DNA from: Methylobacteriaceae bacterium
GTDB taxonomy: Bacteria > Pseudomonadota > Alphaproteobacteria > Rhizobiales > Beijerinckiaceae
DNA: 39,606 nt
NCBI GenBank assembly: GCA_019233695.1
Contig: JAFAME010000242.1
Coordinates: forward strand, 1-39,606
Direction: 5' to 3'
Shown: positions 33,245 to 39,606 of the stretch, in pieces
How positions within the stretch are numbered: position 1 is the stretch's first letter
Layout: every line of letters starts with the position of its first letter
Program-made: the position numbers and the translations under genes
The notes under the pieces: model-generated
What the model saw: only the letters and a program-made list of their open reading frames with translations
Databases searched by the model: none
What the model was told of the DNA's origin: nothing

Positions 33245-33883
33245 ATGTTTCCCGAATTCGCTTGCGACGACGTCTTCAGGTTGGAAACGAGGCGGATGTG
33301 GCTGCGCTGGCCCCACCCCGCCGATGCCGTCGAAATCGCGCATCTCGCCGGCGATCGGGCCATCGCCGAGATGACGGGAACCATTCCCCATCCCTATCGC
33401 GACGGCGATGCGGTGCGTTACGTCGAGCGGACGCGGGCCCGCAATGCGAGCGGGCGAAACCTCGGCCTGCAGATGGCCTTCAAAGGCAAGCCGGGTGCGC
33501 CGATCGGCGCCATCGGTGTCGATTTCGATCGCGGCGATGCGCCGACGCTCGGCTACTGGGTCGGGCAGCCTTTCTGGGGAAGGGGGTTGGCGACCGAAGC
33601 CGTCCAGGCGCTTATCGACTTCGTCTTCACTTTCACCGAGGCGCGGGAAGTCGCGGCGATCGCCAGGGTCATCAACCCGGCATCGCGCCGCGTTCTCGAG
33701 AAATGCGGCTTTGCCTATACGGGCAGCGGCCTCGAAAGCCTGCCGGCGCGCGGCGGCATGCTGCCGTGCGACCGCTTCCGCCTCGACCGCAAAGTCTGGT
33801 TCAGCCTGAAGTGCTGGCGGATGCCGGGCCTGGCGCGAGAGCGCCATTTGGCAAGTGACAGCGAGGAGGCATGCCCCGCCTGA
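33245..33883 (+). CDS. GNAT-family acetyltransferase
   Basis: Acetyl-CoA-dependent N-acyltransferase of the RimJ/RimL type; the substrate is unknown, a protein N-terminus being the family's common case. The 212-residue product (start MFPEFACDDVFRLETRRMWLR, ATG at 33245) contains the acetyl-CoA loop GYWVGQPFWGRGLATEA (103-119) and the C-terminal INPASRRVLEKCGFAYTG signature. It sits after rplU-rpmA as in other Hyphomicrobiales, where such genes usually precede obgE; obgE is not next here. The frame is open from 32915, but that part overlaps rpmA and the terminator. Confidence 0.9.
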   Translation: MFPEFACDDVFRLETRRMWLRWPHPADAVEIAHLAGDRAIAEMTGTIPHPYRDGDAVRYVERTRARNASGRNLGLQMAFKGKPGAPIGAIGVDFDRGDAPTLGYWVGQPFWGRGLATEAVQALIDFVFTFTEAREVAAIARVINPASRRVLEKCGFAYTGSGLESLPARGGMLPCDRFRLDRKVWFSLKCWRMPGLARERHLASDSEEACPA

Positions 33884-33898
33884 GTCGGCCGGGTCGCA

Positions 33899-34037
33899 GC
33901 CCGGATGGAGCGAAGCGCGATCCGGGTCCTCACCCGCCACGGCGTCGCGAGCGGGGCACATCTCCGCGCGCAGGCTCATCCGAAGGCAGGCCTCCCGGCG
34001 GTCGCGGTCCCCGGATTTCGCTGCGCTCCATCCGGGC
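33899..34037. repeat. Long inverted-pair repeat before the DUF5996 gene
   Basis: Two 28-nt arms, 33899-33926 (GCCCGGATGGAGCGAAGCG...) and 34010-34037 (...GCTGCGCTCCATCCGGGC), are near-perfect inverted copies with only a few mismatches, separated by about 83 nt. The sequence type CCCGGATGGAGCGAAGC is a repeat common in Hyphomicrobiales. It occupies most of the gap between the GNAT and DUF5996 genes. Confidence 0.75.
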
Positions 34038-34079
34038 TACAGGCTTCGATCATCACCAGCCCTGCCTGGAGGAGCGCCA

Positions 34080-35039
34080 ATGAACGATGCCGCGGCCTGG
34101 CCCGATATGCCCTTTGCCGCCTGGAGCGACACCGTTGCCACCCTCCACCTCTGGACGCAGATCGTCGGCAAGACGCGGCTTGCCCTGACGCCGTGGATCA
34201 ATCACGGCTGGCAGGTGCCGCTATACGTCTCGGCGCGCGGGCTCACGACGTCGCCGATCCCTTTTGGCAATGAAATCCTCGAAATCGAGTTCGATTTCAT
34301 CGGCCACCGTCTCGTCGCGCGCACCAGCCGCGGCGAGGAACGCGCGCTGGCGCTGGAGCCGCAGACGGTCGCGAATTTCTACGCACGGTACATGGATGTC
34401 CTGACGGACATCGGGGTCGCGGTCGCGATCAACGAGATGCCCAATGAGCTTGCGAACCCCATCCGCTTTTCGCAGGACCGCGTCCACGCCGCCTATGATG
34501 CGGCCGCCGCCCGTCGTTTCTGGCGCGCCCTTGTCCAGATCGATCGCGTGCTGAAACGCTTCCGCAGCGGATTTCTGGGCAAGTCGAGCCCGGTCCACTT
34601 CTTCTGGGGCAGTTTCGATCTCGCGGTGACCCGCTTTTCCGGACGGGCGGCCCCGCTGCACCCAGGCGGCGTCCCTGGACTGCCCGATGCAGTTACGCGC
34701 GAGGCCTATTCGCATGAGGTGAGCAGCGCCGGCTTCTGGCCCGGCAACGCGGCCTTCCCTCAGGCCGCGTTCTACTCCTACGCCTACCCCGAGCCGGCGG
34801 GCTTTCGCGACCGGGTGGTGACCTCGGGCGCGCATTTCGATGACGCGCTGCACGAGTTCGTTCTGCCTTACGGCACTGTCCGCAGCGCCGCAGATCCCGA
34901 TGCCTTGCTCCTCGACTTCCTGTCGAGCACTTACGCGGCCGCGGCCGATGCCGGCAACTGGGACCGTGCGGCGCTGGAAGGCCCGATCGGCGTGCCCGCC
35001 CGGGTTCGCCCGCTCGCGGCGCGCGGCCGGCCAAAATAG
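34080..35039 (+). CDS. DUF5996 family protein
   Basis: A 319-residue cytosolic protein of unknown function. It starts MNDAAAWPDMPFAAWSDTVAT (ATG at 34080 behind GGAGGAGCG) and carries family-typical stretches LHLWTQIVGKTRLALTPWINH, PLYVSARGLTTSPIPFGN, VHFFWGSFDLAVTRFSGR and EVSSAGFWPG. No TM or signal segment. The many His/Trp/Phe residues in conserved positions suggest an enzyme, but no reaction is known. The open frame upstream is read from the palindromic repeat and is rejected. Confidence 0.88.
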   Translation: MNDAAAWPDMPFAAWSDTVATLHLWTQIVGKTRLALTPWINHGWQVPLYVSARGLTTSPIPFGNEILEIEFDFIGHRLVARTSRGEERALALEPQTVANFYARYMDVLTDIGVAVAINEMPNELANPIRFSQDRVHAAYDAAAARRFWRALVQIDRVLKRFRSGFLGKSSPVHFFWGSFDLAVTRFSGRAAPLHPGGVPGLPDAVTREAYSHEVSSAGFWPGNAAFPQAAFYSYAYPEPAGFRDRVVTSGAHFDDALHEFVLPYGTVRSAADPDALLLDFLSSTYAAAADAGNWDRAALEGPIGVPARVRPLAARGRPK

Positions 35040-36060: not shown

Positions 36061-37098
36061 ATGGAAGCGATCGATCTGCGCTCCGACACTGTCACGCAAC
36101 CCTCCGCGCCGATGCGGGCCGCCATGGCACAGGCGCCGGTCGGCGACGACCAGTACGGCGAGGATCCCTCCGTCAACGCGCTGCAGAGCCGGCTTGCGGC
36201 CATGCTCGGGAAGGAAGCCGCGCTCTTCGTGCCGAGCGGCACGATGGCCAACCAGATCGCGCTGAAGGTCCTCACCTCTCCCGGCGACGAGGTCGTTGTC
36301 GGCGAGGAATCCCACATCGTCTGGCATGAGGCAGGCGCAGCGAGCGCCAATGCCGGCGTGCAATTCAGCGTCGTGGGCCGCGGCGGGACATTTCGCGCCG
36401 AGGATCTCGACCGGGCGTTCAAGCCGCGCGACCACATCGTCTTTCCCGCGACCGCCCTTGTCGCCATCGAAAACACGCACAACCGCGGCGGCGGCGTGGT
36501 CTTTCCGCAGGCCGACGTTGGCGCCATCTGCGAGACGGCGCGGTCCCTGCAGGTGAGGACCTATCTGGACGGGGCGCGGCTCTTCAACGCGGCTGCTGCC
36601 GCCGGCGTGAGCCTTGCTGAGCTCGCGGCGCCATTCGACCTCGTGTCCGTTGCCCTGTCGAAAGGTCTCGGATGTCCAGTGGGCAGCGTGCTGGCGGGAG
36701 GCACCGAGCCGATCGCCCGGGCCCGGCGGTTTCGGCGGATGTTTGGCGGCGCCATGCGTCAGGCGGGTATCCTGGCCGCAGCCGGCCTCTATGCGCTCGA
36801 CAACAATCTCGAGCGCCTGCGCGACGATCACGCCAACGCCAAGCTTATCGCCGACCGCCTGGCGCCGCTGAGGGGCCTCGAGCTCGACCTCGCAACGGTG
36901 CAGACCAACATCGTGATCTTTCATCTTGGCGCCGGCGCGCCGGACGCTCAAGCCTTCGTTCAAGCCGCAAAGGAACAGGGAGTGCTTCTGTCCGCCTTCG
37001 GGCCGCGGACGGTGCGCGCCACGACCCACCTCGACGTCACCGCCGCGCAGTGCATGCGCGCCGCGGACACGTTGACCAGGCTGGCGAAGGCTTGGTGA
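36061..37098 (+). CDS. ltaE: Low-specificity L-threonine aldolase
   Basis: PLP enzyme that splits L-threonine or L-allo-threonine to glycine and acetaldehyde. The 345-residue product begins [22 protein letters not shown], the family signature, then [43 protein letters not shown] and the Schiff-base lysine Lys201 in [14 protein letters not shown]. It is full length and intact. It starts at the ATG at 36061, 10 nt after the epimerase gene. Confidence 0.95.
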
Positions 37099-37445
37099 GC
37101 GTCCCGGTCGCCGGCGGTTTGCGTTCAAGCTGCCCATTTGTCCGCTGATCCCGCAAGGGCGACACCTCGCCGGCCATGGCATGGCAAAACCGTTGGTAAA
37201 TCCCTCCGTTGGTCTTCCGCTCGCACGTCTCGCCGCGGGTTGATGCAGCGGGCTGTCCAGTGCCCTGCATCGCGACGGGGCCTCCTTGGGATCCGGCATC
37301 GATCATCGAGCCTCGCTCGGCGCCAACGAAAATGTCGCGCTTTGGTTGATTGAAATCATCAATGCCACCTTGACGAGCAATCAGAGTTCCTGTCTATTTT
37401 GCTTGGTTGGTTTTGAAGATCGAATTTTTAGGGAGGGAACTGATC
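37099..37445. other. 347-nt gap before the small peptide gene
   Basis: No gene. The last 130 nt are markedly A/T-richer than the flanks and hold the promoter at 37370-37398. The shift in base composition here marks the start of the right-edge locus. Confidence 0.5.
37370..37398 (+). promoter_or_regulatory. Promoter of the small peptide gene
   Basis: TTGACG (37370-37375), 17 nt, TCTATT (37393-37398): five and four matches to the sigma-70 consensus at ideal spacing, in A/T-rich DNA, about 40 nt before the start codon at 37446. Confidence 0.5.
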
Positions 37446-37727
37446 ATGGCATCCGCTGCTTCGCTTCAGGAGGTGCGTCGGGAGATCGACGCTGCGTTGA
37501 GTTTGCCGGCCGCGCGTCCACCGGCCAGCGACCGGGCCACGGGGACCATTGCGTCGGCATCTTTGGAAGGTGATTTCTGCTCGTTGTGGCCGGAGGCCAA
37601 GCCGATCCTGGAGGCGATTGGAGGCATCATCGGCATTATTCCCGGGCTCGGTACGGGCGCCGGCGCCATCCTCAAAGCATTGACGTCTCTCGGCGACCAG
37701 ATCTACGGGTCCACCTGCAATAAGTAG
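37446..37727 (+). CDS. 93-residue peptide with Cys-flanked Gly-rich core
   Basis: Starts at the ATG at 37446 behind a strong AGGGAGGGAAC site. The N-terminal 40 residues (MASAASLQEVRREIDAALSL then Pro/Ala/Ser/Thr) look like a leader: an amphipathic helix and a flexible linker, with no classical signal peptide. The second half holds Cys45 and Cys91 on either side of an amphipathic, Gly-zipper-like stretch (PILEAIGGIIGIIPGLGTGA ... LKALTSLGDQIYG, 53-88). That layout resembles class II bacteriocins, circular bacteriocins or small pore-forming peptides. No family recognised. The peptidase-domain gene begins 180 nt downstream on the same strand, which suggests a functional pair. Confidence 0.75.
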   Translation: MASAASLQEVRREIDAALSLPAARPPASDRATGTIASASLEGDFCSLWPEAKPILEAIGGIIGIIPGLGTGAGAILKALTSLGDQIYGSTCNK

Positions 37728-37907
37728 GCGTGAGGTGGGGGCGCCTTCGAGCTGGCGCGGACCAATCAACGACATTTCGGACGTGTCGAGCGGACGACAG
37801 ACGCCAGCCAGGCGGTGTTCTGTCTTCAGGCATGCCGCCACGGGCGCTGCGACACGTTCAACGGTTGCGGCGTTGCGCCGGCTTCTAAGAGCTCTCGGGA
37901 GGGACCG

Positions 37908-39606
37908 ATGCCGGGGACTGTGGAAAGGGGCGTGGTCCTACAACACATTGCATCCCTCTTGGCCGCGCTTGCCGAAAACGCGAAATCCGGAGACGGCTCC
38001 AGTCGAGAGGGCTCGCAAGCCGCCTCAATACGCTTCGCCGGCGCAGCGGCGATGGGCGACAACGATCCCGCCGCGCCCGCTAGCGACGAGGTCAGCGACA
38101 CCGCGGGCCTGGAGGCAGGCAGAACGCTCGCAAACCTCGGCGCCCTCGGGGCGACCGACGCGGCACCCGCCGGGGCACTGGCGTTCGCAGCCGGGGCCGG
38201 GGTCAGCTTCGACCTGTCGCGGGCGCAGGCGTTCCTCGCCGCCTGCATGAGCGCTAACCCCAGAGTGGCGTATGGGCTCGGTAAGAAGGCGCCATGGCTC
38301 GGCGCAGTTCCGGGTCGTGATTTTACGCAAATTGACTGCAGCGGTTTCGTGCGGGAGGCGGTGCGGCTTTCGACAGCCCCTACTCTGCAGTTTCCTGACG
38401 GCTCCGTGGTCCAACACGACTGGGTCCGGGCGCATGGCTTCGAGCGGTCGTCCATTGCGGATGCCAAAGCGAGCGACGGCGTCGTTCGCATTGCCTTTCT
38501 AAGGCCCCAGGATTCCGGCGAGGGGATCGGCCACGTCGTGCTGGTCGCCGAGGGCAAGACGATCGAGTCGCACGGCCACGTCGGACCGGATGCGCGCGCC
38601 TGGACAGGGACGGATTGGCAGGCGAAGGCGTTTGTCTATGTGTTCGCGCGCGATGGACGGCTTGCCCTGCCCAGCACGTCCGAAAGCTTTGCCGCGGCCC
38701 AGGCCGCCGCCCCGACCTTCACCGTTCGGCACGGCCACAGGTATGCCGCCGAGATCGTTTTGAGCGGCATCGAATCTTTCTTCGCGAGCAACGCTCAAAT
38801 CGAGGTCAGGCTGCAGGGTTATGGATTCAGCGATGTTACAGTCACCGGCAGCGGCCTGATCCGATCTGCGGAGGCGACCTGGAGCGGTGCGGACACGACG
38901 GCGCCGATCGACCCGCATCTGCGCAGCATCCGCGAAATTCCGCTGGCTCCCCCGGGGGATGCCCCGGCCCGCGCCGCCGCGGTGGCGGCGCCCGTGGTGA
39001 TCAGGGCCAGTGCAGGCCCGCCCGTCGTCCCTGGTCCGAGCCACGTGTTCGCCACGGCCGGGCTGCCGAAATATCATGAACGCGTTCTCGCCGTGCGCAT
39101 GCGCCCCGAACCCATGGACGAGGCGCCCCGCGAGGCGGCAAACGTGGGGGCAGCGGCCGCAATGGCGCTTGCCCAAACGGAAAGCGAGCCCGAGACCGCA
39201 GGGATGAGCGCGCTGTCCTACTATGACCGGGCCGGGAAGGTCGAGCGCGTCACGTCGTTACGGGGGAGAGCCGCCGTGCCACATCGGCGGGCACCCGCAG
39301 TGGCCGCCCTGACGGTCGCTTCGGCTTCGACAGGGCCAGCCGACGACATCGACCGGATCAAGATCATAGAGCTTCGAAGTGGTCAGGACACCGAGGCGCT
39401 GCATCAGGCGTTGGCAAAGGATCCGACCGTGGCCGACGTCTCGAGGGTCGCGGCTCGGTATCTTCTTGGCCGCCGCCCCGTGTCGACGGCGCCGATGAAT
39501 GCAACGCCGGCCATCGAGGCGCATCCGCCGCTATGGAACTTGAGCAAGATCCGCTGGCCTGAGGCGCGCGAAATCGAGGGCTTTCACGATGCCGACGAAA
39601 TCACCG
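37908..39606 (+). CDS. NlpC/P60-like peptidase fused to probable subtilase, 3' end outside window
   Basis: An open frame of 566 codons from the ATG at 37908 (GGGAGGGACC upstream) to the window edge. Residues 1-100 are Ala-rich without a signal peptide. Residues about 115-246 look like an NlpC/P60-type cysteine-peptidase domain: nucleophile Cys144 in QIDCSGFVREA, His209 in GIGHVVLVAEG, and His222/His224 in ESHGHVG as third-residue candidates. A beta-rich segment (about 271-325) and a low-complexity linker follow. At 478-566 there is a propeptide-like stretch (DDIDRIKIIELRSGQDTEALHQ) and PLWNLSKIRWPEAREIEGF, the context that normally comes just before the catalytic Asp of S8 subtilisins; that Asp would lie beyond the edge. 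The first domain is fairly sure, the second is inference. Confidence 0.7.
   Translation, partial: MPGTVERGVVLQHIASLLAALAENAKSGDGSSREGSQAASIRFAGAAAMGDNDPAAPASDEVSDTAGLEAGRTLANLGALGATDAAPAGALAFAAGAGVSFDLSRAQAFLAACMSANPRVAYGLGKKAPWLGAVPGRDFTQIDCSGFVREAVRLSTAPTLQFPDGSVVQHDWVRAHGFERSSIADAKASDGVVRIAFLRPQDSGEGIGHVVLVAEGKTIESHGHVGPDARAWTGTDWQAKAFVYVFARDGRLALPSTSESFAAAQAAAPTFTVRHGHRYAAEIVLSGIESFFASNAQIEVRLQGYGFSDVTVTGSGLIRSAEATWSGADTTAPIDPHLRSIREIPLAPPGDAPARAAAVAAPVVIRASAGPPVVPGPSHVFATAGLPKYHERVLAVRMRPEPMDEAPREAANVGAAAAMALAQTESEPETAGMSALSYYDRAGKVERVTSLRGRAAVPHRRAPAVAALTVASASTGPADDIDRIKIIELRSGQDTEALHQALAKDPTVADVSRVAARYLLGRRPVSTAPMNATPAIEAHPPLWNLSKIRWPEAREIEGFHDADEIT

Follow-up and report, generated by a model that had tools for sequence, protein, structure and literature searches.

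The right-hand end of the stretch of DNA analyzed here (hereinafter the window: 39,606 bases, the entire contig G000:C284) raises the question of whether a small peptide gene and the large two-peptidase gene that follows it form one functional unit and, if so, what such a unit might do. The peptide gene (37446..37727, forward strand; 93 aa), recognized from its translation and from homologs in other genomes, is preceded by a ribosome-binding site (AGGGAGGGA; 37430..37438, forward strand). After a gap of 180 bp the large gene starts on the same strand from the ATG at 37908, behind a ribosome-binding site of its own (GGGAGGGA; 37897..37904, forward strand), with 566 codons visible (37908..39605, forward strand) before it is cut by the contig end. 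Both are real genes. As the window is a whole contig, its right edge is an assembly end and not a biological boundary, and the encoded subtilase is truncated because the contig stops at 39606, a few residues ahead of the S8 catalytic Asp. Searches of the same genome with the S. meliloti S8 peptidase and with PF00082 returned no recognizable continuation of the S8 gene; the S8 matches on contigs C148, C100, and C31, considered as the missing piece, do not resemble it. A promoter that the original prediction had placed at 37370 did not hold up: a consensus scan of 37090–38100 recovered no promoter-like or terminator-like sites, and the TTGACG (37370)/TATTTT (37395) pair with its 19-base spacer (37370..37400, forward strand), read directly in the sequence, is doubtful. 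Upstream, at 33855–35036, the window codes for a DUF5996 protein (E = 4.5e-138) of unknown function.

The translation bore out the predicted features of the peptide, namely a leader-like front and a Cys-flanked hydrophobic core, and comparison with other genomes showed it to be a member of a family. Its leader-like part (residues 1–43; 37446..37574, forward strand) lacks cysteines, has a net charge of -2, and is poorly conserved among the members upon sequence comparison. It is followed by a conserved module (residues 44–91; 37575..37718, forward strand) with the pattern FCxxW...P...GD...C, defined by an eight-member alignment and an AlphaFold2 model. The window peptide has only two cysteines, C45 and C91, with the hydrophobic stretch between them. 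The model, computed from four sequences, places helices at residues 36–63 and 69–91 with a mean pLDDT of 60; the core is accordingly predicted, with modest confidence, to be a helical hairpin, for which a disulfide between the cysteines near its two ends is plausible. The putative membrane activity of the peptide, like the disulfide, is suggested by its composition and by this same mean-pLDDT-60 model. Searches with the window peptide gave no acceptable hit in NCBIfam, PADLOC, PHROGs, or Pfam, where the best was CFAP410_C at E = 0.13, and a profile of three members matched nothing in the PDB below E = 0.6, nor was there a fold match at E ≤ 0.001. The literature searches made surfaced no description of it, which does not prove it to be unpublished. 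The new part of the locus is thus an uncatalogued peptide family, and the enzymes found around it are of known kinds.

We recovered eight members of this family: the window peptide, one each in G072, in L035 (a Beijerinckiaceae MAG), on an S. mexicanum plasmid, in G640, and in G1156, and two in G1155 (G1155a and G1155b). They share the core consensus FCxxW ... P ... GD ... C, with C, W, L, P, G, and D as invariant alignment columns; all eight retain the last Cys, which in G1155a is shifted by one position. The leaders, with start codons chosen by us, span 29–62 aa and are uniformly Cys-free, and their net charge is negative in seven of the eight. The numbers of members kept were two from a draw of 100 genomes, one from 385, two and three from draws of 397, and three from a draw of 28 (G1155 counted twice); the draws overlap and these counts are not additive. 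To these were added one plasmid record among 72,556, in which the window peptide itself as query had no match, and one genome-contig locus (L035). Counted per genome, the E-values of the G1155 pair were 7.8e-12 and 6.7e-7; those of the G640 and G1156 members were 2.8e-4 and 2.5e-4, respectively. A profile of four cores scored each of four other members, themselves picked through profile searches, above all 5000 of its shuffled versions, G1156 only narrowly so (12.2 bits against 9.5 for the best shuffle). We left out six of the eight matching genomes in the 100-genome draw (E = 0.003–0.0082) and six of the eight in one 397-genome draw (E = 0.0012–0.009). The other two in the latter were the window genome and G1119, which was counted once with L035 because it agrees with that MAG in contig number and reading frame. 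Also left out were two Ensifer adhaerens records (E = 5, matching on the leader side) and a 35-aa match, L048 (E = 0.0025), whose place in G939 holds an internal stop.

The large protein had been read as an NlpC/P60-like cysteine peptidase joined to the start of a subtilisin (S8) domain, and both halves of this reading were upheld. The NlpC/P60-like domain (residues 101–251; 38208..38660, forward strand), with C144, H209, and H222, is recognized by its motifs, alignment, and relatives: DCSGF, FPDGSVVQH, GHV, and ESHG are present in all five aligned proteins (from the window, Rhizobium TH2, M. indicum, G008, and G525). NlpC/P60 peptidases have a Cys-His-His arrangement, which DCSGF, GHV, and ESHG fit. 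Its Pfam match falls below the cut-off (E = 0.087; 13.2 bits against a cut-off of 23), the NlpC profile matched nothing in the PDB up to E = 1, and an AlphaFold2 model from three sequences (mean pLDDT 39.7) was too poor for use in judging a papain-like fold. A linker domain of unknown function follows (residues about 265–345; 38700..38942, forward strand), of which residues 269–345 match an open frame in G090 (39% identity, E = 3.2e-9). Beyond it, the alignment of residues about 380–566 with S8 peptidases from S. meliloti and M. nodulans covers the pro-region of these enzymes and extends into the beginning of their catalytic domain, delimiting an S8-type pro-region (residues 380–540; 39045..39527, forward strand) and the first residues of the catalytic domain (39528..39605, forward strand). 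No signal peptide is apparent by eye, and a first scan of genome contigs that took the large protein in full as query gave no match. Small genes following S8 genes in S. meliloti, M. nodulans, Rhizobium TH2, and G640 were considered as free pro-domains inhibiting S8; they resemble S8 pro-domains by eye, with no acceptable Pfam match in those scanned. The small frame in G640 has no significant similarity to the S8 of that genome, and the idea stays an impression.

Relatives of the NlpC half turned up in 3 of 397 genomes of the order by profile, and the large protein matched 72 plasmid records, with 3 of the 20 matches listed lying in the NlpC part. In Rhizobium TH2 the NlpC region, recognized by alignment, is part of a 1716-aa frame with GDSL, amidase_3, M74, and S8 matches; in M. 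indicum the domain is joined to a weak pesticin/phage-lysozyme match and in G525 to a GH25 lysozyme. In G008 it is not fused, and its neighbors are a trypsin-Endonuclease_NS fusion, a protein with a weak match to lysozyme, and two more trypsin-like proteins; three viral contigs code for stand-alone relatives of ~160 aa (35–45% identity). Going by these relatives, which are joined to lysozyme, amidase, or S8 domains or occur in viral contigs, the NlpC half may most simply be interpreted as an endolysin-type wall hydrolase. It shares the Cys/His/His motifs with the NlpC/P60 endolysin-type peptidases but differs from them in scoring below the Pfam cut-off and in being joined to S8. The proposed role of maturation enzyme is hence doubtful for this half, given the fusions of its relatives to lysozyme, amidase, and endopeptidase domains. 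The viral relatives, one of which lies just after a small open frame that by eye contains a hydrophobic stretch, also raise the very unlikely alternative of a captured phage lysis cassette comprising a holin-like peptide and an NlpC endolysin. Against it, the window peptide is unmatched in the phage collection and in PHROGs, a pattern search with two members found no module in viral contigs, and G640 pairs its peptide with S8, with no NlpC seen beside it. Moreover, there was no significant peptide match in the three viral NlpC loci.

The genes adjoining the peptides bear most directly on the link between peptide and protease. In the window, the peptide is followed by the NlpC-S8 gene. In G640, an S8 gene (PF00082, E = 3.1e-23) lies 82 bp downstream of the peptide gene; it codes for an intact triad (motifs VDSG, GHGT, and GTSA), differs from the window S8, and is followed by a 107-aa open frame. 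In G1155b, the module makes up the N-terminal part of a 293-aa protein; the rest of that protein looks papain-like by motif and has no acceptable Pfam match. Neither PADLOC nor PHROGs, where scanned, gave a hit for G1155b, for the window peptide (P0001), or for the large protein (P0002). The L035 peptide gene is followed by a YcaO gene (PF02624, E = 1.5e-32) after 9 bp, or after 51 bp if the first ATG is taken. Thus, counting the window, four of the eight members have a direct link to an S8, papain-like, or YcaO gene; the remaining four (G072, S. mexicanum, G1155a, and G1156) have none directly adjoining. In S. mexicanum, a small open frame lies next to the peptide, and 1.1 kb away comes an Endonuclease_NS-trypsin gene in the opposite orientation; the neighbors of G072, G1155a, and G1156 read as ordinary. 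The peptide family, the NlpC motifs, the S8 relationship, the order of peptide then S8 in G640, and the papain-like fusion are all backed by sequence comparisons. As a separate observation, Neorhizobium galegae (L074, 5107–6521) combines a GDSL-like domain (E = 1e-5, below cut-off) with the papain-like domain of G1155b over two frames, with an amidase_3-like gene upstream.

The presence of a second peptide member beside a different protease suggests that the peptide is switched on or matured by the adjoining protease. The original prediction, which looked to recurrence of the peptide beside NlpC/P60-S8 fusions, stands for S8 as such, as seen in G640, and fails for the fusion, which was absent from all seven other peptide loci within the stretches fetched; conversely, no significant peptide match was seen in five non-viral NlpC loci (L013, L014/L040, L015, L018, and L054) or in the three viral ones. 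Hence, the absence of co-occurrence that was to count against it applies to the fusion only. Half of the members lacking such partners leaves room for mere coincidence, in which the peptide would be an independent small membrane or stress protein with unrelated, varying neighbors; the NlpC-S8 relatives without a peptide likewise fit this idea. We nevertheless consider it unlikely: S8 directly follows in two of the eight members (the window and G640) despite the scarcity of S8 genes in these genomes, with three PF00082 matches per genome in five member genomes and none in a sixth (G480), and a papain-like fusion and a YcaO neighbor occur in two further members. The chance of at least one S8 neighbor among the other peptide loci comes to a rough, post hoc 0.004–0.008, assuming about one gene per kilobase and a rate that excludes S. 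mexicanum. The module was absent from all seven fetched loci of S8 relatives (L016 and L061–L066).

The YcaO gene after the L035 peptide fits a processed peptide, as suggested in the original prediction. It also lends support to the main rival, namely export of a bacteriocin or RiPP against a target outside the cell. On that account, the leader would guide modification and/or export, the S8 would be the leader peptidase, the mature peptide would hit competitors outside, and the NlpC domain would be a passenger or have another role. This is possible, though we lean against it. The Cys-free leaders of the members and the YcaO and TfuA genes near the multidomain S8 gene of Rhizobium TH2 speak in its favor along with L035, while none of the other seven members, the window included, was found to adjoin YcaO or a different modifying enzyme. 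The G072 genome has no YcaO match, and the only one in the window genome is on another contig (C14). Most RiPPs have a leader that is better conserved than the core; the present family shows the reverse, its core being the better conserved part. The fusion of G1155b to a papain-like domain also sits poorly with a RiPP. In comparison with the YcaO/TfuA RiPP clusters, as excerpted (PMC8120280), the leader-core layout is alike and one member (L035) adjoins YcaO; however, the window gene has no adjoining modifying enzyme, and its core is conserved and its leader variable.

The reading that we tentatively prefer, while holding it at somewhat less than an even chance, is that of a membrane-active or antibacterial hairpin released by S8 from a pro-peptide, with a wall-cutting NlpC partner, in microbial conflict. 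In this pro-peptide, a variable leader would precede a hydrophobic hairpin of two helices, compact and with cysteines close to both ends. An S8 subtilase in the cytosol, lacking a signal peptide and held latent by its own pro-region, would remove the leader and thereby free the membrane-active hairpin, and the NlpC/P60 domain on the same protease in the window genome could cut the wall after the membrane is breached. The unit would thus act in conflict by killing its own cell (abortive) or, if exported, a competitor. In this scheme, we infer the cleavage of the leader, the disulfide, the membrane activity, the activation cue, and the target. It draws on the conserved module, the G640 pair, the scarcity of S8 genes, the papain-like fusion, the company kept by the NlpC relatives, and the PADLOC "subtilase" matches of two S8 relatives. 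Against it weigh the four members that have no such partner, the module's absence from the S8-relative and NlpC loci, the missing PADLOC and PHROGs hits, and an S8 triad that lies outside the window. A bolder and quite improbable version is a minimal gasdermin-like suicide switch, in which the signal-less subtilase would, by removing the leader, free a helical hairpin capable of a disulfide that opens the inner membrane, and the fused endolysin-type NlpC domain would then break the wall, the hairpin being a portable module that alphaproteobacteria combine with other proteases and wall hydrolases as well. In bacterial gasdermins, a neighboring protease releases a membrane-active effector; the likeness is one of shared idea, the present peptide being about 90 aa and helical. 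If the preferred reading is right, a small uncatalogued peptide family in Hyphomicrobiales would connect wall hydrolases, a peptide-modifying enzyme, and subtilases that lack a signal peptide. It would also represent a protease-released effector of very small size and give a role to S8 fusions annotated merely as peptidases.

Among known systems, the unit resembles the peptidase-rich conflict systems of alphaproteobacteria, going by the excerpted account of them (Kaur et al., 2020; PMC7159879). As described there, System 3 has a core of a NucA-type endonuclease and a trypsin-like peptidase, with EAD1 on a subset of effectors, and its alphaproteobacterial parts include NucA, trypsin, S8, lysozyme, and papain-like peptidoglycan peptidase domains. 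The mix of peptidases and wall hydrolases is alike, and the G008 and S. mexicanum islands have trypsin-Endonuclease_NS proteins. In contrast, neither NucA nor trypsin was found among the window ORFs looked at, the contig ending inside the locus, and neither the peptide nor the large protein matched an EAD in Pfam up to E = 10. The peptide module goes unmentioned in the excerpted description of System 3 (PMC7159879). The statement that the locus has no obvious place in a known system is therefore only partly right, since the peptidase/wall-hydrolase mix resembles System 3 as far as that excerpt goes. Signal-less S8 subtilases of the PADLOC "subtilase" and IetS kinds offer a further comparison: the S8 relatives P0003 and P0004 match the PADLOC "subtilase" model (E = 4e-23 and 2e-24), P0003 with a weak IetS match as well (5.7e-6), but the window protein has no PADLOC match and no partner ATPase was seen.

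Several further arrangements were observed around these genes. The S. mexicanum island (L055, 16308–28172) codes for the Endonuclease_NS-trypsin fusion, a caspase-like protein, a DegT aminotransferase, and an amidase_2-M23 protein. On an M. nodulans plasmid (L013, 5328–8514), parts of an NlpC-S8-type gene lie on opposite strands, as if an internal stretch had been inverted. In Rhizobium TH2 (L040, 7365–20486), the 1716-aa S8 gene is flanked on one side, at a distance of a few kilobases, by a YcaO-TfuA pair plus a BTAD-type regulator and on the other by a CHAT protein; in the window genome, the YcaO gene on contig C14 (L041, 1628–4812) adjoins a TfuA-like gene and is unlinked to the peptide. 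Finally, S8 genes related to that of G640 occur on R. leguminosarum plasmids, with a similar case in Mesorhizobium (L061, 4996–14583; L065, 4687–14274; L062, 2873–8071). On the R. leguminosarum plasmids, the S8 gene sits between a small Ala/Glu/Ser-rich protein on one side and FolE, adenylosuccinate synthetase, and adenylosuccinate lyase on the other; QueE, QueC, and IMP dehydrogenase are close by. In Mesorhizobium, purine genes accompany an S8 and a comparable small protein, and these loci look as if each combined a peptide, deazapurine chemistry, and a maturation protease of the S8 type.
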